Shown piece by piece: positions 2,671 to 20,741 of a DNA stretch of 64,000 nt. A model generated the notes under the pieces. That model did not search any database and was not told the origin of the DNA. It was given only the letters and a program-made list of their open reading frames with translations. Where the stretch lies: the NCBI GenBank assembly GCA_949299185.1, contig CASFZR010000006.1, positions 29,251 to 93,250 of the forward strand. Reading direction: 5' to 3'. The DNA is from an uncultured Spirochaetales bacterium. GTDB taxonomy: Bacteria; Spirochaetota; Spirochaetia; Sphaerochaetales; Sphaerochaetaceae. The first letter of the stretch is position 1. Each line of letters opens with the position of its first letter. The position numbers and the translations under genes are program-made.

Positions 2671-2967
2671 ATGACTATAGACAAGAAGCACGATGGTTCT
2701 TCATTCTTCCTCACGGTTTCAGGCCGGGTAGATACCCTCACGGCGCCAGAGCTGGACAAGGCCATCAAGGAAGGGCTTGGTACCTCATCCGCGCTCGTGA
2801 TCGATTTCTCCGATCTCGACTATATCTCGTCAGCTGGCCTGAGGGTGCTTCTCTCTGCTCAGAAGGTCATGAATAAGCAGGGGACGATGACGATAAGGAA
2901 CGTGAAGCCTGCCGTCATGGACGTCTTTGAGGTCACAGGCTTCTCCAGCATCCTTACGATCGAGTGA
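2671..2967 (+). CDS. STAS-domain anti-sigma factor antagonist (SpoIIAA/RsbV type)
   Basis: A 98-residue single-domain STAS protein. The segment LVIDFSDLDYISSAGLRVLL is the conserved phospho-acceptor loop; Ser53 aligns with SpoIIAA Ser58, the residue phosphorylated by SpoIIAB. The ribosome site AAAGGAGG fixes the start. In known partner-switching systems, the unphosphorylated STAS protein binds a HATPase kinase partner and a PP2C phosphatase restores it. It is the only free-standing STAS protein in the two operons, which otherwise encode four HATPase-type domains and two PP2C domains. It is therefore the obvious shared partner. First gene of operon A. Confidence 0.9.
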   Translation: MTIDKKHDGSSFFLTVSGRVDTLTAPELDKAIKEGLGTSSALVIDFSDLDYISSAGLRVLLSAQKVMNKQGTMTIRNVKPAVMDVFEVTGFSSILTIE

Positions 2968-2991
2968 TGAAAGGCCGCGGGATGGTGGCAG

Positions 2992-4734
2992 ATGAGCGCT
3001 GAGCTTACGCAGCTGCGGCAGGATGAGCTGTTCCTGCGAAAGGCCTTCCATAGGAGCCTCCTTCCCTGCATCCTCTCTATCCTCAGCGGTAATATAAACA
3101 TACTTGTCGATGGAATCCTCGTCGGACAGCGTATCGGTACCGATGGACTCTCCGCGATAAGCCTCTGCGTGCCTGTCTATCTGATGCTTTGCGTGATAGG
3201 CTCATTCATCGTCTCGGGAACGGCTATACAGGCATCAAAGGCCATAGGCCGCCAGGATGGGGTTATGGGGCAGAGGCTCTATGCCACATCCGTATGGCTG
3301 TGCGTTGCAGCCTCGGCCTTGGTGACGGTCATCGGGCTTGCCTTATGCCATCCGCTCTCCGTGATGCTGTGCGGAGATGAGTCCGGCCTGATCCCGCTTG
3401 TGTATGGCTATGCCTCAGTGACCATCATAGGGGCCCTGCCGAAGATACTGGTGTATGTTCCTTTCTGGTTCCTGCGGATGGATGGCCGTGCCAGCCTCGT
3501 TACATGGATGATGCTCGTGATGGGGGGAGGGAACGCGATCCTCGACTACATCTTCCTCTATCCGCTGGGCATGGGGATAGAAGGCGCGGCATGGGCCAGC
3601 GTGATATCCACAGCACTGGCCTGCATCATAGGCTTCGTATGGCTTTCGGACAGACGGAGCGGCTTTCACCTGGGACGCGCCATGATACGCCAGGCTGAGG
3701 AGTGGAAGGCCATCGCGATCGATGGTAGCCCTTCAGCCTTGAACAATCTCTTCCAGACGCTTCGCCTCCTGGTCGTGAATGCCATGCTTATGGATGCGGG
3801 CGGCAGCGCCCTTGTGGCTGTATTCACCGCGGTCAACTGCATAAGCGCCTTCTCCCTTGCGGTAACGGATGGGGTGACCCAGGCAGCGTCGCCGATGCTC
3901 GGGATCTATAGCGGTGAGCGTGATAACGGCAGCACCGTACTGCTTGTGAGGCGCGAATGGCGTACAGGCGTCATCTGCTCCGCCATATTCTCTGTTGCCA
4001 TCATCGCGCTTTCCGATGTCATATCATCACTATATGGGCTTGATGTATCGCTGTATCCTGCGATGGCCTGTCTTTCGCTTGGCATGTTCCCTGGGCTTCT
4101 CTGCAGCATCCTCTCAGTCCATTACAATATCTCAGGACATGCAGGGCTTGCTAATCTGATCATATTCTCCAGGACGTTCCTGATGGCGGGTCTCTCGCTC
4201 CTAGCGGCGCTGCGGCTGGGCCTTTCGCCATGGCTGTTCCTATTCCTAAGCGAGGTGCTTACCGTCATCATCTGGGTCATCGTGTCAGGCATCTACCATC
4301 GCCTTCATCCGATCTGTACCCGATTCCTTCTCCTTGACCGCTCGCTTGAGAGGGAAGGAAGCGTGCTGAACTTCTCAGTGGCGGGCAGCGTCGAGGAGAT
4401 CTGCACCACCAGTGAGAGGCTTTCCGGCTTCTGCACGGAGATAGGCATGGGTGACAGGGAATCCATGAGCCTTGGACTGGCCGTGGAGGAGATCATGACG
4501 CTGATAGTAGGGATGAATGATGGTGTACCTGTGCGTTTTGACGTGAGGATGTTCTCCGTTCATGACGTCATAGGACTGCGTGTGCGCTATGGAGGCATCG
4601 AATTCAATCCATTCTCACCTAATCACGGCAAGGAAGATGATCTTTATCTTGGGGCTGAGCTTATCTCTGGGATAGCCGAGCATGTGCTTTATCAGCGTAC
4701 GTTCGGCGTGAATACCGTCCAGATACTGCTTTGA
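2992..4734 (+). CDS. MATE-family membrane transporter with C-terminal degenerate HATPase (RsbW-like) domain
   Basis: Residues about 20-440 form a multi-helix MATE-type exporter; the N-terminus has the typical SLLPCILSILSGNINILVDG helix. Residues about 455-580 resemble an RsbW/SpoIIAB-type HATPase: GLAVEEIMTLIVGM corresponds to the N-box helix, VRYGGIEFNPF to the G1 box and LGAELISGIAEHVLY to the G2 region. The N-box asparagine is replaced (EEIMTL) and the G1 aspartate is lost (YGG), so ATP binding is doubtful. MATE proteins usually end near residue 450; this is a fusion. It follows the STAS gene by 24 bp. I infer gating by STAS binding. The transported substrate is unknown. Confidence 0.82.
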   Translation: MSAELTQLRQDELFLRKAFHRSLLPCILSILSGNINILVDGILVGQRIGTDGLSAISLCVPVYLMLCVIGSFIVSGTAIQASKAIGRQDGVMGQRLYATSVWLCVAASALVTVIGLALCHPLSVMLCGDESGLIPLVYGYASVTIIGALPKILVYVPFWFLRMDGRASLVTWMMLVMGGGNAILDYIFLYPLGMGIEGAAWASVISTALACIIGFVWLSDRRSGFHLGRAMIRQAEEWKAIAIDGSPSALNNLFQTLRLLVVNAMLMDAGGSALVAVFTAVNCISAFSLAVTDGVTQAASPMLGIYSGERDNGSTVLLVRREWRTGVICSAIFSVAIIALSDVISSLYGLDVSLYPAMACLSLGMFPGLLCSILSVHYNISGHAGLANLIIFSRTFLMAGLSLLAALRLGLSPWLFLFLSEVLTVIIWVIVSGIYHRLHPICTRFLLLDRSLEREGSVLNFSVAGSVEEICTTSERLSGFCTEIGMGDRESMSLGLAVEEIMTLIVGMNDGVPVRFDVRMFSVHDVIGLRVRYGGIEFNPFSPNHGKEDDLYLGAELISGIAEHVLYQRTFGVNTVQILL

Positions 4735-4743
4735 GGGTAGCGT

Positions 4744-6405
4744 ATGGATCGTAAGGCTATTGGACGGAAGGCACTGGGGGATCTTAGGCGGGACGCAGAA
4801 GCGGCCTCTGCTGTTCAGCGCCACGAGCTGCTTTCGATCCTCTCTGGGAATAAGGAGACGGAGTATGGCAGGCGCTACGGATTCTCAGGCATCGAGAGCG
4901 TGGAAGCGTTCCAGTCGATGGTGCCTATGACCACATATGAGGATTACCAGGGATATATAGACAGGATGATAGCCGGAGAGAGGGGAGTCCTGACGGCATC
5001 GGATCCTGTTTATTACGCCATAACATCCGGCAGTACCGATACGCCGAAATATGTCCCGGTGACTGAACGTGATATGCGCGTTCATCTCGATTTCATCCAT
5101 TCAGGTATCATGGGGATGGTCGATGAGTACTTCGCCTCCTCATGCCCCGATATCCTCTCCCGCAAGGTCTTCCAGGTAGGTGAGTTCGCCAGGACGGCGC
5201 TTCCATCCGGGGTCATGTGCGGGGTGCGTTCCGCTTCGCTATACCAATGGCTAGACAGGGATGGCTCGTTCGATGCCTCTCCGTTCTGCGTGCCCAAGGA
5301 TGTCCTCTTTCCCGATGAGCTTGAGGATCTTACCTATGTGAAGGTACGCTTTGCGCTCGCCGAGCGTCATCTTTCCTCGATACACAGCGTGTTCCTGCAT
5401 CGCATCGTAAGTGCCCTGGATTACATCAGGAATAACTGGTCGCTTCTCCTTCGCGATATGGAGATGGGGGATATCGATCCAGCCATACAGCTTTCCTCGC
5501 GCTGGCGTGAAAGGCTCAGGACCTGGCTTCCTCCCGATCCGGAGAGGGCTGTAGAGCTTAGGGCTCTGAGGATAGATGAGGATGCCTCTGATATGATCCG
5601 GAGGATATGGCCGGAGATGCGGTATCTCATTGCCATAGGGGGTAGGAGCTTTCCTGTCTATGAGGAGGCGATCGCCTATTATGGGCCAGATATTCCGATA
5701 CATCATTTCATCTATGGCGCCTCCGAGGGCTTCCTGAGCATCGCCAACGGGGTGGGGCGCTCGGATGAGTATATCCTCATACCTGCCGCTGGATTCTTCG
5801 AGTTCATCCCCGCAGAGGGAGGTGGTCGCCCATTGGTCGTCGGCGAGCTTGAGAAAGGGGGACGCTATGAGCTTGTGTTCACGAATCATTCCGGGCTTTA
5901 CCGCTATAGGATGCGTGATGTGCTGGAAGTCGTAGGCTTTCTGGGCGAGACGCCTGTGATAAGGTTCTGCTATCGGGTGAACCAGATGCTGAACGTGGCT
6001 GATGAGAAGGTTGACTCCGAGCAGCTTGGAACGGCGATGCGTCTCTTCAGCGAGCGTATGGGTATCCCGCAGCCGCGCTTCTGCTTCGATGAGGATTTCT
6101 CCGAAAGGCCGGGGCGGTATATCGCGTATATCGAGGGAAAGAAATTGTACGATGCGGATAGGGTATTGGATGAATGTCTATCACACGCAAGCTATGGATA
6201 CAGCGGCTGTAGGCTTATGGGGGATATCTCCATGCCGCATGTACGGTTCCTCCCTGAAGGCACTTTCAGGCGCTATGAGGATGGCGTTGCCAGCACGGGA
6301 AGGGCCATGGCGCAGTACAAGCCGGCGATGATGCTGCGTAAGGATGAGATGAGATCCTTCCTAGCAGCCGAGGCGGGCAGATGGGAGAAGGAGGAAGGAT
6401 TATGA
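4744..6405 (+). CDS. GH3-family acyl-adenylate/amido synthetase-like protein
   Basis: A 553-residue member of the GH3 branch of adenylate-forming enzymes. ATP-binding motifs are visible: YYAITSGSTDTPKYVPVT, YGASEGF and YRYRMRDVLEVVGF. Plant GH3 proteins adenylate carboxylates and join them to amino acids; substrates of bacterial members are mostly unknown. It sits between the MATE-HATPase gene and the phosphatase gene, separated by 9 bp upstream and overlapping the next start by 4 bp (ATGA), so it belongs to the same transcript. It might make or modify a small molecule handled by the neighbouring transporter; this is inference. Confidence 0.85.
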   Translation: MDRKAIGRKALGDLRRDAEAASAVQRHELLSILSGNKETEYGRRYGFSGIESVEAFQSMVPMTTYEDYQGYIDRMIAGERGVLTASDPVYYAITSGSTDTPKYVPVTERDMRVHLDFIHSGIMGMVDEYFASSCPDILSRKVFQVGEFARTALPSGVMCGVRSASLYQWLDRDGSFDASPFCVPKDVLFPDELEDLTYVKVRFALAERHLSSIHSVFLHRIVSALDYIRNNWSLLLRDMEMGDIDPAIQLSSRWRERLRTWLPPDPERAVELRALRIDEDASDMIRRIWPEMRYLIAIGGRSFPVYEEAIAYYGPDIPIHHFIYGASEGFLSIANGVGRSDEYILIPAAGFFEFIPAEGGGRPLVVGELEKGGRYELVFTNHSGLYRYRMRDVLEVVGFLGETPVIRFCYRVNQMLNVADEKVDSEQLGTAMRLFSERMGIPQPRFCFDEDFSERPGRYIAYIEGKKLYDADRVLDECLSHASYGYSGCRLMGDISMPHVRFLPEGTFRRYEDGVASTGRAMAQYKPAMMLRKDEMRSFLAAEAGRWEKEEGL

Positions 6406-8408
6406 GGAAGATAGGTCTTTCTGCGAAGCTTATCGCAAGCGTGCTTATACTCAGCGTGCTGCTGTGCATAACGATAAGCTACATGGGATACCGCGAGTTC
6501 ACGACGGTGCTGGAGGATCAGTACAACCGTTCGGCATATGAGATAGCGGAGACGGTGAAGACCTATCTGAATCCAGATGATTTCGATAGATACCTCAGGA
6601 CGGGGGAGACGGATGAGGAGTACGACAGGATCGAGGCCCTCCTTGATTCCCTGGTGATATCTACCGATACCTATACCATCTACGTGACTGAGCTTTCCGA
6701 TGGGTACACGACAAGCACGTACATCTATGACGCCATCCATCCTGATACCGGCTTCTCCCGCTACGAGCTGGGCTATAAGGCCGAGGATATGGATCCGCAG
6801 TATCAGGAGGAGGTCGAGAGGATGATGACGACAGGGGAGCGTAGTGCCGTTTACTTCTACTCATATTCCGAAGCCTCAGGAGCTCACACCACGGCTGCGA
6901 TTCCGGTGGAGGATTCCTCTGGAGCCATCGTCGCGATGATCGGGGTGGAGAAGGCGATGACCGCTCTCAATAGCGCGCGTCTTACATACGTCCTGCATGT
7001 ATTCGAGGTTACGGCCGTCGCTGTCATCCTCTTCCTCATCATCTATATCTTCTTCCTCCGCCGTAGCGTCATAACCCCTATCCTGACGATAACGGAGGAG
7101 GCACAGCGCTTCGCGCAGGATAATGTCGAGCAGCTTGATGTGCTGGAACGCATACGTTCGAACGATGAGATAGGCATCCTTGCCTCGGTAATAGGCCAGA
7201 TGGAGACCGATATCGTGAGCTATGTGGAGAACCTGACTGCCATCACGGCCGAGAAGGAGAGGATAGGCGCGGAGCTTTCGGTCGCGACGCAGATCCAGGC
7301 AGATATGCTGCCTTCGGTCTTTCCCCCGTTCCCGGATCGCCATGAGTTCGATATCTATGCCTCGATGACGCCGGCGAAGGAGGTCGGCGGTGATTTCTAT
7401 GACTTCTTCCTCATAGACGACACGCATATAGCCCTGGTGATGGCTGATGTATCGGGCAAAGGCGTTCCTGCCGCGCTCTTCATGGTGATTGCCAAGACGA
7501 TGATAAAGAACCGGTGCCTGCTGGGGGAGGATCCCTCTACCGTACTCCATAACGTGAATGACCAGCTATGCGAGAACAATGAGGAGGGTATGTTCGTTAC
7601 CGTCTGGCTGGGCATCTATGATATCACCACGGGGCGTCTCGATTATGTCAACGCCGGCCATGAGTATCCTGCGGTGGCTAGGGCTGGCGAACCGTTCTCG
7701 CTGATAAAGGAGAAGCCTGATTTCGTCGTCGCGGGAATGGAAGGCCTGGGCTATCGTTCCCGTACGCTCCAGCTGTCGCCCGGTGATAGGCTCTTCCTGT
7801 ATACTGATGGCGTGCCGGAGGCTACCGATTGCTCCAGCACGCTCTTCGGAGAGGAAAGGATGGTCGAGGCTCTCAATGAAGGACGTGAGCTTGACGTGCA
7901 GGCATTGCTTGTGCATATGAAGGAGAGCGTGGATCGCTTCGTCGGGGATGCTGAGGCCTTTGATGATATAACGATGCTGGCGTTTGATGTAAGGTCATAT
8001 GCGGGGGAGGATGCTATGAGGCGCATAAGCGTCAACGCGGAGCTTGGAGAGCTGGAGGCCGTACTCTCATTCGTTGAGGAGGTCCTTGCCGAGGCTGGAG
8101 CCGATGAGGCCCTGGTATCTCAGGCAGGCGTGTGCATCGACGAGCTTTTCTCAAATATAGTGTTCTACAGCGGTGCCTCAGACGTCACTATCGAGTTCTG
8201 CCGTCACCCTTCCTCATACAGCTTCCGCATCATCGATGACGGGAGGATGTATGATCCTACCGCGGCAGCTGAGCCTGATACCACGCTCTCGGCAGAGGAT
8301 CGCGCGATCGGAGGGCTAGGCATCCATATAGTGCGTAAGTTCATGGATCGGATGTTATACGAGTATAAGGACGGGAGGAATATCGTAACGCTGGAGAAGT
8401 CTATCTAG
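6402..8408 (+). CDS. Membrane sensor SpoIIE-type PP2C phosphatase with C-terminal intact HATPase kinase domain
   Basis: A 668-residue protein starting at the ATG within the ATGA overlap, behind GGAGGAAGG. Order: TM helix (about 8-30), extracytoplasmic sensor region (about 31-198), TM helix (about 200-222), HAMP-like linker, PP2C domain (EVGGDFYDFF, MADVSGKGVPAALFM, DGVPEATD, DDITMLAF) and, from about residue 540, a full RsbW-type HATPase. The HATPase retains the N-box (CIDELFSNIVFYSG), G1 (IIDDGRMYDP) and G2 (GGLGIHIVRKF). It is thus a likely bifunctional STAS kinase/phosphatase driven by an external signal, and the only HATPase in the two operons with all ATP-binding motifs. Ends convergent with dusB. 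Confidence 0.9.
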   Translation: MRKIGLSAKLIASVLILSVLLCITISYMGYREFTTVLEDQYNRSAYEIAETVKTYLNPDDFDRYLRTGETDEEYDRIEALLDSLVISTDTYTIYVTELSDGYTTSTYIYDAIHPDTGFSRYELGYKAEDMDPQYQEEVERMMTTGERSAVYFYSYSEASGAHTTAAIPVEDSSGAIVAMIGVEKAMTALNSARLTYVLHVFEVTAVAVILFLIIYIFFLRRSVITPILTITEEAQRFAQDNVEQLDVLERIRSNDEIGILASVIGQMETDIVSYVENLTAITAEKERIGAELSVATQIQADMLPSVFPPFPDRHEFDIYASMTPAKEVGGDFYDFFLIDDTHIALVMADVSGKGVPAALFMVIAKTMIKNRCLLGEDPSTVLHNVNDQLCENNEEGMFVTVWLGIYDITTGRLDYVNAGHEYPAVARAGEPFSLIKEKPDFVVAGMEGLGYRSRTLQLSPGDRLFLYTDGVPEATDCSSTLFGEERMVEALNEGRELDVQALLVHMKESVDRFVGDAEAFDDITMLAFDVRSYAGEDAMRRISVNAELGELEAVLSFVEEVLAEAGADEALVSQAGVCIDELFSNIVFYSGASDVTIEFCRHPSSYSFRIIDDGRMYDPTAAAEPDTTLSAEDRAIGGLGIHIVRKFMDRMLYEYKDGRNIVTLEKSI

Positions 8409-9367
8409 AGGAGGGCTCGGATGGCAGAGCGAAGCTCCTCCTCGGTCGTAGCCTTGCCGATGGCGGCCTTCGCTGAGGCGGCTCCGCTGATGCCTTTTAG
8501 GTATGCCATGAGCTGCTTCTTCATCTCCCTGCACGCCGTATGCTCGCCGAAGTAGGAAATAGCGAGGGAGAGATGCCTTTCGGCTGTCTTGATCCGTTCC
8601 TCTATGGAAGGAAGCGTGTAGCTTCCCTTTTGCATATACTCCTTCGTCATGCGGAATATGAAGGGATTGCCTATTGCACCGCGCGCGAACATGACGCCAT
8701 CGAGGCCATATTCATCCATCATCTTTACCGCGTCTTCGGGTGTGAAGACGTCGCCTGAGCCGTAGATTAGGATGCCGCTTCCCCTGAAATGCTCTGCGAG
8801 GGTGCGGAACGCGCTTCTGTCCGCGGTTCCTGAATAGCCTTGGGCCCTGGTCCTGGCATGGAGCGTCAGCATATCGGCACCGGCAGACGCGGCTTCCTCC
8901 GCGAACTCGATGTAGTTTATCGACGAGCTGTCCCATCCGAGGCGGAACTTCACCGATACCGGAGTGTCCGTCGCGGCCTTTATCGTGCGCACTATGCGTC
9001 CGATCATTCCCGGCTGCCTCATCAAGGCTGATCCTGCTCCTGTCTTCACGACCTTAGGCACAGGACAGCCGCAGTTGATGTCTATGACAGAGGGATCATG
9101 GCTGATGAGCCTTTCCATGCATCGGGCCACGGGATCATCGGAGGGAGCGAATATCTGCATCACCAGCTCCTTCTCTCCCGGATAGCGCTCAAGGAGCGTC
9201 TCAGTCTTCTCTCCGCCTCTGGCAAGGCCTTCCGCGCTTACCATCTCCGTCACCGCCCCATCGGCTCCAAGCGATCTTGAGACCTCCCTGAAGGCCTTGT
9301 CCGTATATCCTGCGAGCGGGGCGAGCATCAGCGGCCCTACGATCCTTGATATTGCTCTCTCTGTCAT
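8405..9367 (-). CDS. dusB: tRNA-dihydrouridine synthase DusB
   Basis: A 320-residue FMN-dependent TIM-barrel enzyme that reduces uridine to dihydrouridine in tRNA. Visible are LAPLAGYTDKAFRE, the catalytic-cysteine motif INCGCPVPKVVKTGAGSAL, the FMN-binding region HARTRAQGYSG and GSGDV/MFARGAIGNPF. The length is normal. The 3' end overlaps the phosphatase gene by 4 bp on the opposite strand. No Shine-Dalgarno is seen; a -10-like TAGTAT (complement of 9374-9379) ends 6 nt before the start codon, so the mRNA may be leaderless. Confidence 0.93.
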   Translation of the reverse strand: MTERAISRIVGPLMLAPLAGYTDKAFREVSRSLGADGAVTEMVSAEGLARGGEKTETLLERYPGEKELVMQIFAPSDDPVARCMERLISHDPSVIDINCGCPVPKVVKTGAGSALMRQPGMIGRIVRTIKAATDTPVSVKFRLGWDSSSINYIEFAEEAASAGADMLTLHARTRAQGYSGTADRSAFRTLAEHFRGSGILIYGSGDVFTPEDAVKMMDEYGLDGVMFARGAIGNPFIFRMTKEYMQKGSYTLPSIEERIKTAERHLSLAISYFGEHTACREMKKQLMAYLKGISGAASAKAAIGKATTEEELRSAIRALL

Positions 9368-9425
9368 GCTGCGATACTAGCCTATCTCTTGCCAATTTGC
9401 TACCTACGTGCTAGCTTCGGATAGT

Positions 9426-10457: not shown

Positions 10458-10483
10458 TCCAATAATCATCTGACAACCTGCGC

Positions 10484-10503: not shown

Positions 10504-10521
10504 TCTTCGTCTTTGGTGTCG

Positions 10522-10551: not shown

Positions 10552-10631
10552 ATTAGGTATATATAGGGCTAAAGGCATCCTTGCCATTGTGATACCTTCA
10601 CCCTGAGCTATTGCTTATGGAGGAGGATGCT

Positions 10632-10838: not shown

Positions 10839-11903
10839 ATGAGACGATTGCTTGGCGTGGCGGTCCTTGTGTTGCTTCTTGCTGGATGCGCTACGACTGA
10901 TGCCGGACGTAGTCCGGTCGAGGGTAAGAAGGTCGCCTATGTGCTGAACATGGCCCGTAGCGATATCTTCACTGATGCCGCCGCCGGTGCCGTCGATACC
11001 GCGCGTGCGCTTGGAATGAGGTGTACGGTGTACTTCACCGGCGGGGATGACGCGCTTTTCATCTCCTATGTCAACACGCTTGCGGCGGAGGGCTATGATG
11101 GCCTCTTCCTTTCCCATGGAGGCAGGAAGTACTCCCATAGCCTGATATCCTCCGTGCTGCTGCTTTATCCCCAGCTGTCGATCGTCACCTTCGATACCGA
11201 GCTGATAGGACCTGAGGGAGAGCCTGAGGCAATCGATGGCGTCACGCAGTTCTTCCAGGATGACCGTGAGCTTGCCACGATACTCCTTGACTTCATCATC
11301 GAGGAGGTGGCTGAGGAGCGTCCTGCGAGGATCCTTAAGCTATGGGTTCCTGATTATATCGCGGCGTTCGACCGGAGGAACGAGGGCTATGAGGCATATG
11401 AGGAGTCTGGCCTGATAGATACGGTCGCTGTCGTCTCTCCATCCGTGGAGATCGATCCGGAGCTTGCAGCCTATAGGGCGATGATGGAAGCCCTGAAGAC
11501 GATCGATGAGGGTGATGTCGATGCCATCTGGGCTGCATACGATGCCTATGGCCGTGGCTGTTACCGCGCTCTCGCTGAATCCGGGAAGGATATCCCGATG
11601 GTATCCGTGGATATCTCCGAAGGCGATATGTCCCTGATGGCCGAGCCTGGTTCCCTGTGGCTTGCCTCTGCCTGTACCGATTTCCGCGCGAACGGCGAGC
11701 AGGGAATGAGGATCCTTGCCCTCGAGATGGCGGATGAGTATGAGAGCATTCCTTCTGCCTGGATCGAGATGGGAGCCTCGCTCATAACCCGGGAAGATCT
11801 GCCTGGAGAGGGAGAGAGCCTTTCTGACACGGCTCCTTCGTCGTATGGCGATCCTTCAGAGCTTGTCACCAGTCCCTGGATAAGGGACGCGATCGGATAC
11901 TAG
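10839..11903 (+). CDS. Periplasmic-binding-protein-like (type 1) lipoprotein
   Basis: A 354-residue secreted lipoprotein: the signal peptide ends in the lipobox LLLAGC. The mature part resembles sugar-type periplasmic binding proteins (GKKVAYVLNMARSDIFTDAA, then YDGLFLSHGG, DAIWAAYDAYGRG and DIPMVSVDIS), which bind a ligand between two Rossmann-like lobes. GGGGGTAG precedes the ATG. It may present a ligand to the neighbouring sensors or transporters. No sugar permease is nearby, so a sensing rather than uptake role is possible. Ligand unknown. Confidence 0.75.
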   Translation: MRRLLGVAVLVLLLAGCATTDAGRSPVEGKKVAYVLNMARSDIFTDAAAGAVDTARALGMRCTVYFTGGDDALFISYVNTLAAEGYDGLFLSHGGRKYSHSLISSVLLLYPQLSIVTFDTELIGPEGEPEAIDGVTQFFQDDRELATILLDFIIEEVAEERPARILKLWVPDYIAAFDRRNEGYEAYEESGLIDTVAVVSPSVEIDPELAAYRAMMEALKTIDEGDVDAIWAAYDAYGRGCYRALAESGKDIPMVSVDISEGDMSLMAEPGSLWLASACTDFRANGEQGMRILALEMADEYESIPSAWIEMGASLITREDLPGEGESLSDTAPSSYGDPSELVTSPWIRDAIGY

Positions 11904-11913
11904 GAGGTGGGTG

Positions 11914-12630
11914 ATGAAGAAAGCATATGCCATCCTCATCATGGTACTGGCCGTTGCCATCTCAGGCTGTACGACGGTTGATATCGATCGCCAGGGAGCA
12001 TATGAGAGGGCTGTCAGGGATGCGGTATTCGCAGAGGAGTGTGAGCTGATGCCGCTTGTCGAGATCACTCCTGACTCTGAGCTTACGACATGGAACGAAG
12101 AGGGAAAGGTCCTGATGCTCTCATGGAACAGGCATCCTGAGAGGTATATCGAAGGAACATCCTATACCCTTGAGAATGGTGAGATATGGACATTCACGGA
12201 TAAGGAGATCCTTGTCTGGTACGAGGAGAACGGGGAGGGCGTCGAGGACTGGGTGCTGCGCCTAGAGGAGCTTATCGGGCTGCCTGAGGGAAGCGGATAC
12301 ACGCATGTCTCCGCCTTCTGGTGCGATCCGGAGGAGCTTATACGCCCGGCCTATGTCACGGATATAACGGCGCAGATGGATGCCTCTGCACTGGATGGTT
12401 CGGCCCTCGGCGCATTTGAGGAGTGGTTCGAGGGGAATATCATCTGGTCATATTTCGATTCCGCATATCCTTGGACACGCCTTGGATACACCTACGACTG
12501 GGATGAGGCCGGGGATGAGTATGGCCTGACAGAGTTCATCATACTTCCGGGATCCGAGGTGGAGATCGAGTGGACCATCACCACCGAGGAGTTCCTTTCA
12601 TGGCTTTCCGAAGGAGGATCGAATGGATAG
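11914..12630 (+). CDS. Conserved lipoprotein of unknown function
   Basis: A 238-residue protein with a signal peptide ending AVAISGC (lipobox). The mature region is acidic and rich in tryptophan and tyrosine (LSWNRHPERYIEGTSYTL, DSAYPWTRLGYTYDW). The ATG at 11914 is preferred over the GTG at 11911; AGGAGG lies 7 nt upstream. I recognise no functional family. It lies between the binding lipoprotein and the binding protein-permease fusion, overlapping the latter by 8 bp, so it probably acts at the outer face with them. Confidence 0.7.
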   Translation: MKKAYAILIMVLAVAISGCTTVDIDRQGAYERAVRDAVFAEECELMPLVEITPDSELTTWNEEGKVLMLSWNRHPERYIEGTSYTLENGEIWTFTDKEILVWYEENGEGVEDWVLRLEELIGLPEGSGYTHVSAFWCDPEELIRPAYVTDITAQMDASALDGSALGAFEEWFEGNIIWSYFDSAYPWTRLGYTYDWDEAGDEYGLTEFIILPGSEVEIEWTITTEEFLSWLSEGGSNG

Positions 12631-14149
12631 ATACCGCGTGAAGGGGGTGCTTGCAGCACTCCTTGTCTCTCTGATTCTTGCCTTTACCGGCTGTTCAGGC
12701 AGCGATGGCTCCGGTCAGCTCTATCACAGCCTTGATGAGATGAAGGCTCCTGGTACCGTTATCGGAGTGATGACCGGTACGATATTCGATGGGATATCAT
12801 CATCGACGTTCCCAGAGGCCAGGCTTGAGTATTACAATGCCTATGCCGATATGGCATACCTGGTATCGCAGGGACAGCTGGCGGGGTACCTTACCGATGA
12901 GCCTCTGGCACGCTATACCCAGATAACATTCCCCTCGGTCACATACATAGATGAGAGCTTGGGTGAGGCGAACTATGCCTTCGCCTTCGCCAAGACCGAT
13001 ATGGGGACGAAGCTCAAGAACGAGATGAACCAGTTTCTTGCCAGCATCCGCAAGGACGGCACGCTGGAGGAGATCGACTCGATCTGGTTCGGCAGCGATG
13101 AGTCGAAGAAGGTCATCGACAGATCTGGCCTTACCGGTGAGAATGGCACGATACGTGTCGGAACGAGCGTTGAGTGCGCACCGTTCACCTACATGGTCGA
13201 TGGTGAGGTCGCCGGCTATGAGATCGATATTCTCTACCGCTTCTGCCGTGAGTATGGGTATATCCCGGAGATATCTACATCGGATCTCACATCCCTTATC
13301 CCCGGACTCCTGAACCGCTATGACATGGGTGCTAGCTGCATAACGATCACCGAGGAGCGCAAGGAGAGCATCCAGTTCTCTGACCCTGATTATTATGGCG
13401 GTATCGTGATGGTCGTGAAGGGCGATGAGGTCAAGGCCGGTATCTGGGACACGCTCCGTGACAGCTTTGAAAAGACATTCGTCAGGGAGAACAGATGGCA
13501 GATGATCCTCCAGGGGCTCTGGGTGACCGTGCAGATATCCGTGCTGGCAACGGCCATGGGCACGGTCCTGGGATTCGGGCTATGCCTGATGAGGCTGACG
13601 AGGAGCCGCATCGCCCATGGCATCGTGCAGGTATATGTCCGTATCCTGCAGGGAACCCCTATAGTCGTGCTTCTGATGATCCTCTTCTATATCGTGTTCG
13701 CGGGTACTTCCCTTGATGGCATATGGGTCGGTGTCATAGGCTTCGGCCTGAACTTCGCGGCATATTTCTGCCAGATGATGTACACCGGCATCAAGGCCGT
13801 GGACAAAGGACAGACCGAGGCCGCGCTCGCTATAGGATTCACCAAGGTGCAGTCCTTCCTCAAGGTCGTGCTTCCACAGGCGGCGATACATTTCCTTCCG
13901 ATGTACAAGGGGGAGTTCATCTCGCTGATAAAGATGACCTCCGTAGTCGGGTACATAGCGATACAGGACCTTACGAAGATGAGCGACATAATCAGGAGCC
14001 GTACCTATGACGCGTTCTTCCCGCTCATAACGACCGCGGTTATCTACTTCATCATATCGTGGCTCCTGAGCCTCGTGGTCAGCGCCGTGGAGATAAAGGT
14101 CGAACCTGATCGGAAGAACAGGACCGTAAGAGGAGTGAGGATGCAATGA
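12623..14149 (+). CDS. Polar amino acid ABC transporter: binding protein-permease fusion lipoprotein
   Basis: 508 residues. A signal peptide with lipobox-like AFTGC is followed by two family-3 solute-binding segments: an incomplete first copy (about 35-160, [20 protein letters not shown] to [20 protein letters not shown]) and a second (about 175-275, [20 protein letters not shown]). The C-terminal part (about 295-500) is a HisM/GlnP-type permease with the EAA loop ([20 protein letters not shown]) and [17 protein letters not shown]. Such fusions bind amino acid and transport it in one chain. It pairs with the downstream ATPase, whose ATG overlaps this stop by 4 bp. The partial duplicate binding domain is unusual. 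Confidence 0.88.
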
Positions 14150-15252
14150 TCTCAATAAGGAATCTCAGGAAGGAGTATCCGGGTGTCACGCCTCTCAAGG
14201 ACGTGACTGTCGATATAGAGAAGGGAGAGGTGATCTCGATAATAGGCCCTTCCGGAACGGGAAAATCAACGCTGCTGCGCTGCATTAATCTTCTGGAGCG
14301 TCCCACGTCGGGCTCTATAACGATCGATGGAGACACTATCACGGATAAGGGCTGCAAGGTCCATCTGGTCCGTCGCAAGATGGGGATGGTCTTCCAGTCA
14401 TTCAACCTCTTCATGAACAAGAACATCATCGAGAATATCATGATGGGGCCCGTATCGCTGCTTGGAAAGACCAGGCAGGAGGCCTATGACAGAGGCATGG
14501 AACTGCTGCGCATGGTGGGACTGGCGGATAAGGCGCTCTCATTTCCCGATGAGCTTTCAGGGGGACAGAAGCAGCGTGTCGCCATAGCCCGCACCCTCGC
14601 CATGGATCCGGAGATCGTGCTTTTCGATGAGCCGACGAGCGCGCTTGATCCGACGATGGTCGGAGAGGTGCTGGCAGTCATACGCAGCCTCGCGAGGCAG
14701 GGGCTTACGATGATGATCGTCACTCATGAGATGAAGTTCGCCAGGGATGTATCGACGCGCGTATTCTACATGGATCAGGGAGTCGTGTACGAGGAAGGAA
14801 CGCCTGAGGAGATCTTCGATAACCCCAAGAAGGAGAGGACTAGGCAGTTCATACGTCGCCTGAAGGTCTTTGAGGAGACGATATCCTCCCGCGATTTCGA
14901 TTTCATCGGCATCAATAGCCGCATGGAGGAGTTCGGACGGCGTCATATGATGCCTCAGCGGATCATCAATGGCATGCAGGTTGTCTTCGAGGAGCTGTGC
15001 GTGCAGACGATAATGCCGCAGATGGCTGATGATTTCCGCCTGCAGATCTCGGTGGAGTACTCTGATGAGAACAGCGTGGCTAGCATGAGGATACGCTACA
15101 GCGGCGATCGCTTCGATCCCGTTGAGCGCGGAGATGAGCTTTCCATGATGCTCGTCAGGAGCGTTGCCGAGGATATCTCATACAGGGCTATCGATGAGGA
15201 TGGCTACTCATCTGAACTCTCGATGAGCCTTGTATCGGGAGAGAGGCATTGA
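14146..15252 (+). CDS. Amino acid ABC transporter ATPase with C-terminal degenerate HATPase-like domain
   Basis: Residues 1-245 are a GlnQ/HisP-type ATPase: Walker [13 protein letters not shown]-loop MVFQSFNLF, signature [14 protein letters not shown], Walker [14 protein letters not shown] and H-loop IVTHEMKF. Residues about 255-368 are an added RsbW-like HATPase fold: [11 protein letters not shown] (N-box region, Asn replaced by Gln), [10 protein letters not shown] (G1, Asp lost) and [19 protein letters not shown]. Typical GlnQ proteins end near 245 residues. The tail is not a known regulatory domain of importers such as NIL or CBS. I infer that it binds the STAS partner and controls uptake. 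Confidence 0.87.
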
Positions 15253-16688
15253 TGGAACATGTCGCGTCATCCGTTGGCGGATATGACGATCTCTTCCATC
15301 ATAATGAGGGGCAGGCGAACCACTATACGGCTCTCTGCCTCCGTCTTGCGGCCATCGTCGCTGCCGTTATATGGATGCTGAACGTGGCGGGCTTCTTCAT
15401 CGTCGACAGGACGATGATGAATATGATAATGCCGCTGTCGATAGTGATGTTCCTGATTCCCACTGTCCTGGAACGGGCGGGGATGAACGCGAGGAAGGAG
15501 ACTAAGTATCTGATGATCGGATGCTTCGCGCTTGGTATCGCGATGCTGTCGGCGGTCCTGACGATGCACACGGTACTGGCCTGGAGCTGTCCGATCATAC
15601 TCTCATGCCACTACTATTCCCCGCGTGTCACGCGCTTCACCACGTTCTCGGTGCTTGCCTTGATGCTCGTGACATTCTATCTCGGCCTGCCGGTCGGCGT
15701 ATGGGATAGCAATGTGATGCGCGCCAATGAGGATCCCGGAAGCGCTGTGCTGAGGCTTGAGTATATAAGGCAGCATATGTCCACCGGGGATAATATATAT
15801 GTCCGGGGATTCAACTTCTATTATCTGCCGCGCGCGATGATCCTGGTGCTTGTGCATCTTATCTCGATGACGCTCTCGAGACGCACCCATGCGCTTATCT
15901 CGATGCAGGACCGGCTTGTCCGGGATACCGAGCGTATACGTGCCGAGCTTGATATAGCTACCGAGATACAGACATCGGTGCTACCGTCGACGTTCCCGGC
16001 CTTTCCTGACCGGGATGAGTTCGATATCTTCGCCTCGATGACGCCTGCGAAGGAGGTCGGCGGGGATTTCTATGATTTCTTCATGGTCGATGAAGGCCAT
16101 CTTGCCATAGTGATGGCTGATGTCTCCGGCAAGGGCGTTCCTGCGGCTCTCTTCATGATGATAGGCAAGACGCTCATCAAGAACCATACGGTTCCGGGAA
16201 GGACTCCCGGCGATGTGTTCACCATCGTCAACAGGCTGCTTGCGGAATCAGACAAGGAGGGTTTCTTCATCACGGCCTTTGAAGGCGTGCTGGATCTTTC
16301 CTCCGGAGAGCTTCTGTATGCCAATGCCGGACATGAACCTCCGTTCATATCGCGTTCAGGTTCGCCGTTTGCCGCGGAGCCCATTGCCCCTGGCTTCGTG
16401 CTTGCGGGGCTGGAGGATACCGTATACAAGACCGGGCGGATCATGCTCACTCCCGGGGATAGGCTCTTCCTTTACACCGACGGTGTATCAGAGGCGGTCA
16501 GGACCGATGGCTCGCTCTTCGGCAGGGAGAGGATAGGATCGGCGCTCTCATCCTGCGGCCCGGCCTCTCCTGAGGACATGATCAAGGCGATGAGCGGTAC
16601 CCTCAGTACATTCATGGCCGGGTGTGATCAGGCTGATGATATAACGATGCTCTGCCTGGAATACAGGGCGGAGAATCAGGGTAGATAG
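15252..16688 (+). CDS. Integral-membrane SpoIIE-type PP2C phosphatase
   Basis: 478 residues: about six N-terminal hydrophobic helices (residues 28-215, e.g. AAIVAAVIWMLNVAGFFIV), a short coiled linker, then a PP2C domain (about 235-475) with EVGGDFYDFF, MADVSGKGVPAALFMM, ANAGHEPP, DGVSEAV and DDITMLCLE. All metal-binding acidic residues are visible. Unlike the phosphatase at 6402-8408, it has no HATPase domain. The catalytic regions of the two are closely alike (both FDI-ASMTPAKEVGGDFYDFF), suggesting duplication. The start overlaps the preceding stop (TGATG). Probable role: dephosphorylating the STAS protein in response to a membrane signal. Confidence 0.88.
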   Translation: MEHVASSVGGYDDLFHHNEGQANHYTALCLRLAAIVAAVIWMLNVAGFFIVDRTMMNMIMPLSIVMFLIPTVLERAGMNARKETKYLMIGCFALGIAMLSAVLTMHTVLAWSCPIILSCHYYSPRVTRFTTFSVLALMLVTFYLGLPVGVWDSNVMRANEDPGSAVLRLEYIRQHMSTGDNIYVRGFNFYYLPRAMILVLVHLISMTLSRRTHALISMQDRLVRDTERIRAELDIATEIQTSVLPSTFPAFPDRDEFDIFASMTPAKEVGGDFYDFFMVDEGHLAIVMADVSGKGVPAALFMMIGKTLIKNHTVPGRTPGDVFTIVNRLLAESDKEGFFITAFEGVLDLSSGELLYANAGHEPPFISRSGSPFAAEPIAPGFVLAGLEDTVYKTGRIMLTPGDRLFLYTDGVSEAVRTDGSLFGRERIGSALSSCGPASPEDMIKAMSGTLSTFMAGCDQADDITMLCLEYRAENQGR

Positions 16689-16697
16689 GTACGGAAT

Positions 16698-18281
16698 ATG
16701 GATTTTTCTCTTGATAACACAAGCATAGTCGCCATAAATGACGAGCTGGAATCATTCCTGATGGCAGGGAAGGCCGAGGAGAAGAACAGGCTTCGCATAC
16801 AGCTCACGGCTGAGGAGATACTCCTGAAGTATCAGGAACGCTTCGGAGAGGGGACGAAGGTAAGCGTAAGGTGCATCAGGCGATTAGGCCGCATGCGCAT
16901 AGAGCTGTCCTTCGATACCGAGCGGTTCAACCCGTTTGAGGATGGAGAGGATGAGAGCCTCGTGCTTCATAGCCTCCTTGCCAGCATGGGAGCCGCGCCG
17001 CTTTGGCAGTACCGCAACGGCCGGAATGTCATCACGTTCACGCCGCGTAAGAAGAAGCGCTCGCAGATGGTGTATATCATCGCGGCCGTCATCCTCGCGC
17101 TTGGCTGTGGCATTGCCTGCCTAGCCCTTCCTGACGGGGTTGGGGCTTTTATCTCATCTCAGGTCATCTCGCCGCTTCTGGGAGCCTTCATGGGCCTGCT
17201 TTCCGCTGTCTCTGGCCCGATGATCTTCTGCTCAGTGCTTATCGGCATCTGCAGCATAGGAGATACGGCGACGCTTGGGCGCATAGGAAAGCTGATGATG
17301 GCACGGTTCCTCATCATCACGCTGCTGCTGAATGTGATCGTGTCGCTGATATACCTGCCGTTCTTCGATCTCTCTTCCCTAGGCGGCAGCGTGCTTGATT
17401 TCTCAGCTCTTCTCGATATGATGCTGGGCATCATCCCTGGAAATCTCTTCACCCCGTTCACCGAGGGCAATCCGCTGCAGATCATATCGGTGGCGGTGAT
17501 GCTTGGCATATCGATCGTGATCCTTGGACAGAAGGTGTCGACGGTAATGTCGTTCTTCGAGCAGGTCGATTATATCATCCAGCTCCAGATGGAGGCCGTG
17601 AGTACGCTTGTTCCGTTCTTCGTCTTCGGAAGCATATTCAACATGATCGTCAATAGCGATTTCGCCGTGCTTATGAGTTCTTCCAAGTTCATTCCGATCA
17701 TGCTGCTCGGTGATCTTGTGATCATCGTCATCTACATAGCGATGGTCTCACTCAGGAAGGGGCTGAATCCGATGCTGCTTATCCGCAAGATCGCCCCTAC
17801 GTTCCTCATAGCCATCACCACCGATTCATCTGCCGCCGCCTTCTCCACGAACGTGGAGTGCTGCGAGAAGGATCTTGGCATCGATAAGAAGATCATCAGC
17901 TTCGGTATTCCCCTTGGGCAGGTGGTATTCATGCCCGGAGCCTCGATCCTCTTCCTCGCAGCGGCGTTCTGCATGGCAGAGGTCTATGGCGTGTCTATAT
18001 CGCTGCCTTGGCTTGTCAGTGCCATCATAATCACGTTCGTGCTAGCAGTGGCCGCGCCTCCGATACCGGGTGGTGCGCTCATATGCTACACGATGCTGAT
18101 GACGCAGCTAGGCCTTCCTGACGAGGCCATCGCCATAGCGATCGCATTCAACGTGATCCTTGAATTCGTCGCTACTGCATTCAATCTTTCCTGTCTTCAG
18201 CTTGAGCTGGTAGAGCTTTCCGGCGAGCTTGATATGCTGGACAGGGAGGTGCTTAGGAGTAATTGGAGGCAACCGAGATGA
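16698..18281 (+). CDS. SLC1-type (dicarboxylate/amino acid:cation) transporter with N-terminal degenerate HATPase-like domain
   Basis: Residues 1-115 resemble the RsbW-type domain (IQLTAEEILLKYQERFG, ELSFDTERFNPFEDG, LWQYRNGRNVITFTPR). The N-box Asn and the G1 glycine are missing. Residues about 125-510 are an SLC1/DAACS transporter: TTDSSAAAFSTNVECCEKDL (HP1) and PPIPGGALICYTMLMTQLGL (HP2). Canonical coupling motifs are changed: the TM7 NMDGT position reads FMPGA, and TM8 lacks the usual Asp/Arg ligands. Substrate and ion coupling may therefore differ. Here the regulatory domain is fused at the N-terminus, the opposite end from the MATE and ABC proteins. Confidence 0.85.
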   Translation: MDFSLDNTSIVAINDELESFLMAGKAEEKNRLRIQLTAEEILLKYQERFGEGTKVSVRCIRRLGRMRIELSFDTERFNPFEDGEDESLVLHSLLASMGAAPLWQYRNGRNVITFTPRKKKRSQMVYIIAAVILALGCGIACLALPDGVGAFISSQVISPLLGAFMGLLSAVSGPMIFCSVLIGICSIGDTATLGRIGKLMMARFLIITLLLNVIVSLIYLPFFDLSSLGGSVLDFSALLDMMLGIIPGNLFTPFTEGNPLQIISVAVMLGISIVILGQKVSTVMSFFEQVDYIIQLQMEAVSTLVPFFVFGSIFNMIVNSDFAVLMSSSKFIPIMLLGDLVIIVIYIAMVSLRKGLNPMLLIRKIAPTFLIAITTDSSAAAFSTNVECCEKDLGIDKKIISFGIPLGQVVFMPGASILFLAAAFCMAEVYGVSISLPWLVSAIIITFVLAVAAPPIPGGALICYTMLMTQLGLPDEAIAIAIAFNVILEFVATAFNLSCLQLELVELSGELDMLDREVLRSNWRQPR

Positions 18282-19726
18282 TTAGCTTCATTATCTGTCT
18301 TACCGTGCTTATCGCAGGGTATTTCCTCTATGGACGACTGGTTGAGGATGTGTTTCATCCAGATGACAGGGAGACTCCCGCAGTGCGTATCGATGACGGT
18401 GTCGATTATGTCGTGATGCCTGAGTGGAAGCTCTTTCTGGTACAGCTACTGAATATAGCGGGACTGGGACCTATATTCGGCGCTATGCAGGGGGCCCTCT
18501 GGGGACCTGTGGTGTTCCTCTGGATCACGCTAGGCACGATCTTCGCCGGTGGTGTCCATGACTACTTCTCCGGGATGCTCAGCGAGCGGAATAACGGATA
18601 TTCCATATCAGAGGTGACGGGAATATACATGGGCGGGGTCATGAAGAACATCATGCGTGTGTTCTCTGTCATCCTCCTTGTGATGGTGGGCACGGTCTTC
18701 GCTGTCGGACCTGCCGGCCTCGTGGTCGAGCTTATTGGCAATTCCGGCGCAGGCGAGGGGAGCTTCCTTCTCAATACCCGCATGTGGATCATCGTGATCC
18801 TCGCTTATTACTTCATCGCCACGTTCGTCTCGATCGATAAGATCATCGGGAAGATATACCCGGTCTTCGGTGTCTGCCTTATCATCATGGCCATAGGTGT
18901 GATCTTCGGTATATTCACGAGTCCTGAGTATACGATTCCCGAGATCTGGGCATCATTCAGGAACATGCATCCTGATCATACGCCTGTCTGGGCCTTCATG
19001 TTCATCACGGTGGCCTGCGGGGCGATATCAGGCTTCCATGCCACGCAGTCTCCGCTGATGGCGCGTTGCATGAAGAGCGAGAGGCAGGGGCGTTTCGTGT
19101 TCTATGGAGCTATGACCGCTGAGGGTGTGATCGCCCTTATCTGGGCGGCTGCCGGCTGTGCGATCTACGAGGTCACGGGTGGGCTTTCAACAGGGCTTGC
19201 CACGGCTCTTGCCGCCGGGCAGAGCGCGGCTATCTATGATGTCTGTTCCAAGACGATGGGAGGCGTGGGTGTCGTGCTTGCCATGATCGGCGTCATCGTG
19301 TGTCCGATAACCTCTGGTGATACGGCTTTCCGCTCCGCCCGACTCACTATAGCGGACTGGATTGGATTGGATCAGAACGATTGGAAGAAGCGTCTCCTGC
19401 TATGCGTGCCGCTTCTCGGTGCAGGTCTTCTGATAAGCTTCCTTGATTATACGGTCGTCTGGAGATACTTCAGCTGGACCAACCAGACCCTGGCTATGAT
19501 AGTGCTATGGACAGCGAGCATGTATCTCTTCCTTGAAGGAAAATGCTACTGGCTTACCGCCGTGCCGGCCTTCTTCATGTCTGCTGTCTCCGCGACGTAC
19601 TTCTTCTCCGCGCCGGAGTGCCTGGCGCTATCGACTGCTATCGCGTATCCTGCGGGACTTGTGGTGGCGGTCGTGTTCCTTGCGGTATTCCTCTCCGTGA
19701 TCAGGAAGAAGAGGGCTTCCACCTGA
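18278..19726 (+). CDS. cstA: CstA-type carbon starvation/peptide or pyruvate transporter
   Basis: 482 residues with about a dozen membrane helices. CstA hallmarks are GPIFGAMQGALWGPVVFLWI, GGVHDYFSGMLSERN, SGFHATQSPLMARCM and CPITSGDTAFRSARL. Known members take up peptides or pyruvate. Shorter than E. coli CstA, like other compact homologues. Start at the ATG inside the ATGA overlap with the preceding gene; GGAGG lies 9 nt upstream. Being last-but-one in operon B suggests nutrient uptake under the same control as the HATPase-fused transporters. Confidence 0.9.
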   Translation: MISFIICLTVLIAGYFLYGRLVEDVFHPDDRETPAVRIDDGVDYVVMPEWKLFLVQLLNIAGLGPIFGAMQGALWGPVVFLWITLGTIFAGGVHDYFSGMLSERNNGYSISEVTGIYMGGVMKNIMRVFSVILLVMVGTVFAVGPAGLVVELIGNSGAGEGSFLLNTRMWIIVILAYYFIATFVSIDKIIGKIYPVFGVCLIIMAIGVIFGIFTSPEYTIPEIWASFRNMHPDHTPVWAFMFITVACGAISGFHATQSPLMARCMKSERQGRFVFYGAMTAEGVIALIWAAAGCAIYEVTGGLSTGLATALAAGQSAAIYDVCSKTMGGVGVVLAMIGVIVCPITSGDTAFRSARLTIADWIGLDQNDWKKRLLLCVPLLGAGLLISFLDYTVVWRYFSWTNQTLAMIVLWTASMYLFLEGKCYWLTAVPAFFMSAVSATYFFSAPECLALSTAIAYPAGLVVAVVFLAVFLSVIRKKRAST

Positions 19727-19727
19727 T

Positions 19728-20741
19728 ATGCCTTTATTCCGTCCTGTGCCGTTATCATCATCCGTGCTTCCTGCCGATGCATTGAATAGGGATGCGGCCT
19801 CGGCATCGCGCTTCGGTCCTGCCGGGGTCGGGGAGAAGGCTGTGTATCTAGGCTCCTTCATGAGGGAGAGGCACGGCTATGTTCCGTATGATGCTATCGC
19901 GAGGATATACAAGCGTGTTGCCATGACCAAGGGAGGATTCTCCGGTCGTGGCATGTTCGTTTCTGCCGCCTACCTTGTCGTGGAGTTTCGCGAAGGAGGA
20001 GAACGCTCATGCTATATCGGCAGGGAGGAGATCGCGGACAGCCTCATCGCCGCGGTGATGGCCAAGGCTCCGGGCCTCCGATTCATGAGCGAGGCGGCTG
20101 AGAGGCGCATCAGAAGGAGACTGGAGGAAGAGAGCTCCCGGATGAAGGATGATATCGGGAAGGAGGCTGAGGCCCTTGCGGCGGCACTTATCAGGGAGCG
20201 TGCATTCCTTGAGGAATCGCCATCCCTATATAATGCCCTCTCCGTTGCTTCCCGACGTAAGCGCTCCGATGATATCTCGAGGCCTATGCTGCGCTATGTG
20301 GCGACAGCGATCGTCCTTCTGGGAGCAGCGGCATCTGCCTACGGCGTTGTTTCCATTGCCAGGAATGGCCTAGGGGATGCCGTCTATATCGCATTATTCG
20401 GCATTGCCGCGGTGTTTCTCTTCTCAGGCTTTTCCGTGTTGCCATCGGGGCGATCGAGCCGCCGTGCGATACAGCAGGGACTGGATGATGCCATGGCGGC
20501 GATGGAAGGATACATCAAGGGATACGATGGCTTCCATCTTCCTGCCCGTTATGCCCACCCGGCGGTGCTTACGCGGGTGATACGCATCATCCAGGAGGGC
20601 AGGGCCACGGGCTGGCATGATGCGTTCTGCGTCATGAAGGATGAGCTTAAGGCCATCGATAGCTCCTGCCGCGTGTCCCAGGAGGAATATGATGAGATCA
20701 TGGCCATAAAGCCGATGTTCCTGATACATGGCTGGGAGTGA
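19728..20741 (+). CDS. Conserved membrane protein of unknown function
   Basis: 337 residues, starting 1 bp after cstA. The N-terminal half is soluble and contains a possible PH-like strand pattern (DAIARIYKRVAMTKGGFSGR, SAAYLVVEFREGG); a charged helical stretch follows (about 125-165). Two adjacent membrane helices lie at about 185-240 (YVATAIVLLGAAASAYGVV and VYIALFGIAAVFLFSGF), then a helical C-terminal domain. I do not recognise a function. It appears to be the last gene of operon B. Confidence 0.75.
   Translation: MPLFRPVPLSSSVLPADALNRDAASASRFGPAGVGEKAVYLGSFMRERHGYVPYDAIARIYKRVAMTKGGFSGRGMFVSAAYLVVEFREGGERSCYIGREEIADSLIAAVMAKAPGLRFMSEAAERRIRRRLEEESSRMKDDIGKEAEALAAALIRERAFLEESPSLYNALSVASRRKRSDDISRPMLRYVATAIVLLGAAASAYGVVSIARNGLGDAVYIALFGIAAVFLFSGFSVLPSGRSSRRAIQQGLDDAMAAMEGYIKGYDGFHLPARYAHPAVLTRVIRIIQEGRATGWHDAFCVMKDELKAIDSSCRVSQEEYDEIMAIKPMFLIHGWE

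Follow-up and report, generated by a model that had tools for sequence, protein, structure and literature searches.

We analysed a 64,000-nucleotide stretch of DNA from the 2.2 Mb draft genome of an uncultured Spirochaetales bacterium (contig CASFZR010000006.1, positions 29,251 to 93,250; hereafter the window), in which two operons, at 2671-8408 (operon 1, + strand) and 10839-20741 (operon 2), encode the proteins of a partner-switching system together with three transport proteins, each carrying an additional domain related to the kinase of such switches. The known targets of partner switches are sigma factors and a few others. Judged from the sequences, copies of the switch kinase seem here to have lost their activity and to have been joined to transporters of three unrelated families (MATE, ABC and SLC1), and the switch may regulate or sense transport itself in place of gene expression. 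Our reading, to which we give a probability of roughly one half, is that of a partner switch lacking its own sigma factor, wired to transport through RsbW-derived pseudo-kinase domains on the transporters. The coordinates of all open reading frames in the initial annotation of this DNA were verified.

The added domain lies at the C-terminus of the MATE transporter (2992..4734, + strand; PF01554, 3e-16; domain at residues ~451-580, 4342-4731) and of the amino-acid ABC ATPase (14146..15252, + strand; ABC_tran, 6.8e-37; domain at ~14872-15249), and at the N-terminus of the SLC1-type protein (16698..18281, + strand; domain at 16698-17057), as first annotated. Pfam gave none of the three domains a match over cut-off; the ABC copy reached an E-value of 0.074, and the MATE and SLC1 copies had no match at E 1. 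A hidden Markov model (HMM) of each domain type matched the other types, and that of the SLC1 domain detected a MATE fusion at 3.8e-7 and an ABC fusion at 1.7e-9. Alignment by hhalign to 14 intact kinase domains, which gave 97.2% for the SLC1 type, 99.2% for the MATE type and 95.5% for the ABC type, agreed with these cross-matches, and the negative control, the SLC1 domain against STAS, gave 0.1%. A PDB sequence search with a mixed alignment of the domains returned weak RsbW matches (best 0.096), and a fold comparison was needed. The predicted model of one ABC-type relative supported the GHKL switch-kinase fold, which for the MATE and SLC1 types is supported by profile comparison; in a second fold-comparison table the STAS half of the modelled chain accounts for most rows. 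The added domains on the three transporters are one family of single origin, homologous to switch kinases, and the HATPase-like identity originally given to them holds.

We confirmed the reported loss of the ATP site in the window copies, where the N-box Asn is replaced by Leu (MATE), Gln (ABC) and Lys (SLC1), and the G1 motif reads YGG, YSG and FDT, with Tyr, Tyr and Phe in place of the Asp. Intact kinase domains from the related loci described below have the N-box Asn in 39/39 and the G1 Asp in 38/39 cases. Among the added domains surveyed, the Asn was found in 11/125 SLC1, 3/47 ABC and 11/25 MATE copies and the G1 Asp in 3/125, 0/47 and 15/25, respectively, and the G1 Gly in 115/125, 45/47 and 12/25, to which the window SLC1 copy is an exception. 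Identical sequences and SLC1 proteins shorter than 481 residues were left out of this census and of that of the SLC1 motifs, and two alignments were used for the residue work, in one of which a few residues of some rows are misplaced. Loss of the ATP site is the rule for the SLC1 and ABC domains, and the MATE copies run from almost intact to dead and suggest a route from active kinase to pseudo-kinase. In the EE motif of switch kinases the second Glu is the catalytic base; it is kept in 105/117 bacterial SLC1 domains despite the lost ATP site, and in 0/8 archaeal ones. An F-(D/N)-P motif, noted at the outset as shared by the fused domains, is indeed present in them but is not special to them. 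It reads YDP, FDP, FNP or YNP in 37/39 intact kinases and is therefore ancestral, and as a docking motif peculiar to the fusions it was ruled out.

The partner proteins make up a complete list of RsbV/W/U-type parts: a STAS protein with a phosphorylatable Ser, an intact kinase and two SpoIIE-type PP2C phosphatases, in accordance with the initial annotation. The STAS protein (2671..2967, + strand; 98 residues) is of the RsbV/SpoIIAA type (PF01740, 4.5e-17; TIGR00377 of NCBIfam, 71.6 bits against a cut-off of 53.45), and its best PDB matches were 4hyl and 6m36_B. In HMM alignments Ser54 (codon at 2830) faces the serine that is phosphorylated in RsbV and SpoIIAA, and Ser53, initially named as the key serine, faces an Asp; Ser54 is thus the putative phosphorylation site. 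The kinase domain (~8034-8399; PF13581, 1.1e-19) ends a membrane sensor (6381..8408, + strand) that contains a PP2C domain (~7416-7991; PF07228, 1.6e-47) and a probable HAMP domain below cut-off (PF00672, 22.1 bits). The motifs of both enzymes are intact (GGDFYDF, ADVSGKG and DDITML in the phosphatase; CIDELFSNI, IDDG and IGGLG in the kinase), and the E, N-box, DxG and GGLG elements of an ATP-binding switch kinase are all present. The second phosphatase (15249..16688, + strand) has PF07228 as its sole match (6.7e-43) and carries no kinase domain. Genome-wide, one STAS match at a threshold of E 1e-5 and one HATPase_c_2 match over cut-off were found, both in operon 1, and two of three PP2C matches lie in the window operons; the third phosphatase, also SpoIIE-type (17693-18889 of locus L303), adjoins genes that by eye are Rex-like and iron-sulfur hydrogenase-like, apart from the module. 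No sigma-factor domain was found among the 17 proteins encoded within 16-20741 that were scanned with Pfam, and in this the operons depart from a classical anti-sigma operon.

Profile searches for further fused transporters, and for STAS and PP2C genes occurring with them, found both in several phyla. When four fused SLC1 proteins were searched against named genomes, 118 stretches passed, the best 80 of which gave 77 loci (68 bacterial and 9 archaeal; loci and genomes are designated here by L and G numbers) with titles including Lachnospiraceae, Oscillospiraceae, Phascolarctobacterium, Coriobacteriaceae, Atopobiaceae and Methanocorpusculum, among others. The match begins at or before query residue 27 in 75/77 loci and hence covers the added domain. 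At the 68 bacterial loci we found a STAS domain in 34 (in some of these as part of a longer protein), PP2C in 27, the kinase in 23, at least one of the three in 39 and a fused ABC ATPase in 37; these local counts are lower bounds, many contigs being short. The association was also seen within the order, where a STAS match is present in 15/17 genomes with a fused SLC1 (17 being a minimum, among the matches listed) against 23/123 others (Fisher p 2.6e-8, uncorrected for kinship). Among the matches listed, and by eye, 7/18 fused SLC1 genes lie within ~15 kb of a STAS match, and nine unfused SLC1 genes that share a contig with STAS (in G024, G101, G114, G115 and G116) are at least 32 kb away from it. 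Operon 1 recurs nearly gene for gene (STAS, fused MATE, GH3, PP2C and kinase) in L315 and L322, which belong to the same genomes as L208 (titled Oscillospiraceae) and L206 (titled Marvinbryantia), and horizontal spread is the likely explanation.

The searches within the order, with single sequences against 140 genomes, found the SLC1 domain in 16 genomes and the MATE domain in 20, some of the matches being other proteins; weak MATE-domain matches were verified for a fetched subset, outside which G097 lies. Fusions were confirmed in G131, G133, G118 and G121. The count of fused SLC1 leaves out G015, with three stops, and G039, G051 and G120, where the matches are other proteins, and a long frame in G084 was ruled out as a fusion. 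In a sample of the phylum the SLC1 profile matched 9/344 genomes, including the source genome and one of another class (G185), in which the fused SLC1, CstA, a fused ABC ATPase and STAS occur together. The binding protein, permease, ABC ATPase and added domain are joined in a single chain in G126 and at several loci with Oscillospiraceae or Lachnospiraceae titles. Literature searches, with subscription papers and preprints outside their scope, found among the papers listed none on a MATE, ABC or SLC1 protein with this domain.

We then considered the SLC1 core of the fused proteins. The window protein retains the SDF core (PF00375, 7.5e-61) and matches the aspartate transporter 9bgz in the PDB at 1.8e-41. 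The NMDGT motif and the Arg and Asp residues of transmembrane helix 8 (TM8) serve the ion and substrate sites of SLC1 proteins. In the phmmer alignment to 9bgz the NMDGT motif is replaced by FMPGA (codon at 17928), and TM8 reads NVILEFVATAFNLSCL, with the Arg and the last Asp both lost. This erosion is widespread, as the TM7 motif reads NM in 13/129 fused SLC1 proteins (116/129 are not NM, two of them reading NLD) against 17/20 unfused ones, the last TM8 Asp is kept in 15/129 (lost in 114) against 19/20, and the TM8 Arg, present in 14/20 unfused proteins, is mostly substituted in the fused ones; the 20 unfused proteins are a small control, hand-picked among the matches listed. In a FastTree phylogeny the 129 fused proteins and one unfused protein form a group (support 0.999), with the other 19/20 unfused proteins outside; within it a subgroup (support 0.985) comprises 112/116 motif-poor fused proteins. 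Within the limits of this small control, the SLC1 fusion probably arose once and its ion and substrate sites were eroded afterwards. The fused SLC1 may be a receptor, or a transporter with another mode of coupling, and given the loss of residues at its ion and substrate sites, the direction of signalling at this protein may be reversed, with SLC1 acting as a sensor.

In the mechanism that we propose, the sensor phosphatases and the kinase would set the phosphorylation of STAS at Ser54. Unphosphorylated STAS would dock on the dead domains, which are presumed to have kept the STAS-facing surface of the kinase yet to be unable to phosphorylate STAS, and docking would alter the activity of the ABC and MATE transporters or report the state of the SLC1 protein; kinase activity would return STAS to the free pool. 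The genome holds a fourth fused transporter, an ABC ATPase of 378 residues with the same C-terminal domain (G000:C23:30307-31443, equivalent to L303 8307-9443), accompanied by binding protein and permease genes, and within the 20 kb around it no STAS or switch-kinase match was found. With a single STAS and four fused transporters in the genome, one STAS would address all four. We co-folded an ABC domain with STAS from adjacent in-frame genes read through the stop codon, so that both partners lay in one modelled chain (L223); the predicted template-modelling score was 0.59, and a true kinase-STAS pair modelled likewise as a control (L245) scored 0.58 and was similarly not docked with confidence.

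The fold, the common origin, the loss of the ATP site and the repeated linkage to STAS, PP2C and kinase genes across phyla all favour a switch wired to the transporters, in partial support of the initial annotation, in which STAS would gate uptake or export; several observations weigh against it. None of the STAS, PP2C and kinase genes was present in the fetched stretch at 29/68 bacterial loci. A STAS profile search of 41 genomes, from 43 loci lacking STAS (L177 and L229 were left out, their genomes being covered elsewhere), found a distant STAS in 30, namely 29/32 bacterial and 1/9 archaeal genomes, and in the remaining three bacterial genomes a PF01740 match was found, one with a stop codon. 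Because STAS genes are widespread in Bacillota, these distant counts are less telling than the association within the order, where two of the 17 carriers (G118 and G121) have divergent fusions and no match to the one STAS profile searched. The EE motif tracks STAS loosely, since the second Glu is missing from 12/117 bacterial domains, including several beside STAS (L234, L245, L246, L251 and L252), and archaeal L227, in a genome with STAS, has Lys at this position. Fusions regularly lacking a STAS or PP2C partner had been named at the start as evidence that would tell against the proposal; 39/68 bacterial loci contain STAS, PP2C or the kinase, and the archaea, together with G118 and G121, weigh against a simple version of the proposal. 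None of the nine archaeal loci has STAS, PP2C, the kinase or a fused ABC ATPase locally, and 8/9 Methanocorpusculum genomes with a fused SLC1 match neither STAS (PF01740) nor SpoIIE-type PP2C. Purifying selection acts on the domain in the eight archaeal genes of full length, with a ratio of non-synonymous to synonymous substitution rates (dN/dS) of 0.02-0.15 where the domain dS is below 1.1, similar to the membrane part. A conserved domain in carriers without STAS indicates that it has, or can acquire, a role independent of STAS. The sole STAS-bearing draft genome of the Methanocorpusculaceae has adjacent kinase, STAS and PP2C genes (L319, G484:C15, 4455-8681), which are either an archaeal module or contamination. 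Finally, the absence of a sigma factor, asserted initially, stands for the scanned window proteins and not for the genome, in which three Sigma70_r2 genes over cut-off lie outside the window operons and leave room for sigma control elsewhere.

These three genes would suit an ordinary sigma-directed partner switch with its sigma gene elsewhere, the fused domains merely titrating STAS. We consider this very improbable, given the window proteins free of sigma domains; the relatives' neighbourhoods were searched with the module proteins only, not for sigma genes. The archaeal copies under purifying selection, most of them from genomes that match neither STAS nor PP2C, would fit a domain that is a fixed structural or assembly module, serving a trimer, a dimer or stability and kept regardless of any switch. 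Such a role fails to predict that three unrelated transporters carry this domain, at the N- or the C-terminus, with repeated links to STAS, PP2C and kinase genes, and we think it rather unlikely. Still less do we favour heterodimerisation of the pseudo-domain with the active switch kinase, by which the transporters would recruit or restrain the kinase instead of binding STAS, although RsbW3 of M. smegmatis acts through an RsbW1-RsbW3 heterodimer (PMC10950880).

Ahead of these we place, as an unlikely alternative, the possibility that the transporter-like proteins are inputs. At least the fused SLC1 would be a solute sensor (transceptor) whose ligand state decides whether STAS is captured or released, or adjusts the kinase, with the output on the ABC importer, the MATE transporter or STAS-fused enzymes. 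The widespread loss of the NM and TM8 Asp residues kept by most unfused proteins, and the grouping of the fused SLC1 apart from 19 of the 20 unfused proteins sampled, argue for this, as does the precedent of CbrA, in which a transporter domain with unconserved sodium-site residues is joined to a sensor kinase (PMC7918813). CbrA nevertheless still transports histidine, so that lost ion residues need not abolish transport (PMC7918813); a minority of fused SLC1 proteins still read NM, and the window ABC ATPase retains intact Walker A and signature motifs. The pseudo-kinase-wired switch can also be drawn more broadly, as membrane signalling free of sigma factors that anaerobic bacteria would use and that would have reached even methanogenic archaea. 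Residue-eroded SLC1 proteins would then be solute receptors, the dead domain would hold or free phospho-controlled STAS, and STAS would gate a MATE exporter and an ABC importer of amino acids that bear the same domain; in this full form we hold it to be doubtful.

The remaining genes of the window operons (all on the + strand) were assigned as follows. In operon 1 the fused MATE gene is followed by a GH3-family enzyme (4744..6405; PF03321, 3.2e-62), found at the same position in L315 and L322, whose similarity to OlsH is weak (71 bits against a cut-off of 620). An AMP-binding enzyme lies after the fused MATE in G277 (L164 3516-5021). The switch may serve the synthesis and export of a conjugate. 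Operon 2 begins with a periplasmic binding protein-like, probable lipoprotein (10839..11903; PF13407, 4.2e-10), homologues of which adjoin other fusions, and an uncharacterised protein, L2 (11911..12630), with a lipoprotein-like start by eye, no Pfam match at E 1 and homologues near some relatives' modules. A solute-binding protein fused to an amino-acid ABC permease (12623..14149; PF00497, 1.2e-25, and PF00528, 1e-20) completes, with the ABC ATPase, the SBP_bac_3, permease and ATPase components of a polar amino-acid importer. After the SLC1 gene come a CstA-type transporter (18263..19726; PF02554, 3.2e-51), with no added domain seen and a homologue adjoining the module in G016 and G185, and an uncharacterised protein at the operon end (19728..20741), with homologues at the equivalent place in G043 and G016.

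Other loci showed variants of the module. In G061, of the same genus, kinase and STAS remain and the permease gene is truncated (L100 8458-10267), neither the SLC1 nor the MATE added domain was found in the genome, and the locus seems to be a decayed module remnant. Pairs of ABC exporters of ~720 residues adjoin modules in L070, L071, L101, L218 and L314; their extra N-terminus, by eye, presumably resembles that of peptidase-type exporters, and they were rejected as carriers, no domain HMM matching those in L070 and L071 or being listed for a further set of them. STAS is naturally fused to an APH/choline-kinase-like phosphotransferase, in some cases beside modules, in L164 (495-1697), L174 (9175-10380), L176 (7837-8961), L312 (2778-3968), L313 (5577-8345), L314 (5575-6756) and L315 (9901-11079), and in L090 (5919-7487) such a fusion is also joined to an intact switch kinase; STAS may address metabolic enzymes as well. 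STAS is also found at the C-terminus of proteins of 611 residues (L312 1091-2923) and 450 residues (L314 7138-8487); their N-terminal parts matched nothing in Pfam or gave a weak methyltransferase match only.

If the proposal is true, it would provide a direct route from phospho-signalling to the control of transport, across several bacterial phyla. It raises the questions of which partner the dead domains bind, whether the SLC1 fusions transport, and what the domain does in archaea without STAS, and its interest rests on the breadth of the distribution and on a key step that is easy to test.

The system resembles RsbV/RsbW/RsbU and SpoIIAA/SpoIIAB/SpoIIE in its STAS protein with a conserved Ser, GHKL kinase and SpoIIE-type PP2C, all intact by motif, and differs from them in operons that lack a sigma gene and in the dead kinase-domain copies on transporters. 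DctA of E. coli belongs to the SLC1 family. Its complex with the STAS-bearing protein DauA (PMC5703999) joins such a protein to an SLC1-type transporter, but the contact is between the membrane domains and the STAS domain by itself does not bind DctA, so that the pair was ruled out as a precedent for STAS-SLC1 binding. A partner switch for which no cognate sigma factor was found has been described (PMC3999984), and SiaABC is a partner switch without sigma (PMC7647112); unlike SiaABCD of Pseudomonas aeruginosa, which includes a diguanylate cyclase, the 17 scanned window proteins gave no GGDEF match. MlaB on MlaF is a case of STAS on an ABC ATPase (PMC7367683), where MlaB contacts the ATPase domain itself, whereas the window ATPase bears an added switch-kinase-like domain. 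Transporters of the SSS family (CbrA, MxtR and actinobacterial proteins) similarly combine a transporter with a GHKL-type module, those of actinobacteria having HATPase_c, GAF and PP2C domains (PMC7918813); the transporter family is a different one, and CbrA differs further in pairing an active histidine kinase with a response regulator, in contrast to the eroded ATP site and the STAS and PP2C partners seen here. Taken together, SiaABC, MlaB-MlaF, RsbW3 and the SSS fusions make the proposed mechanism plausible.

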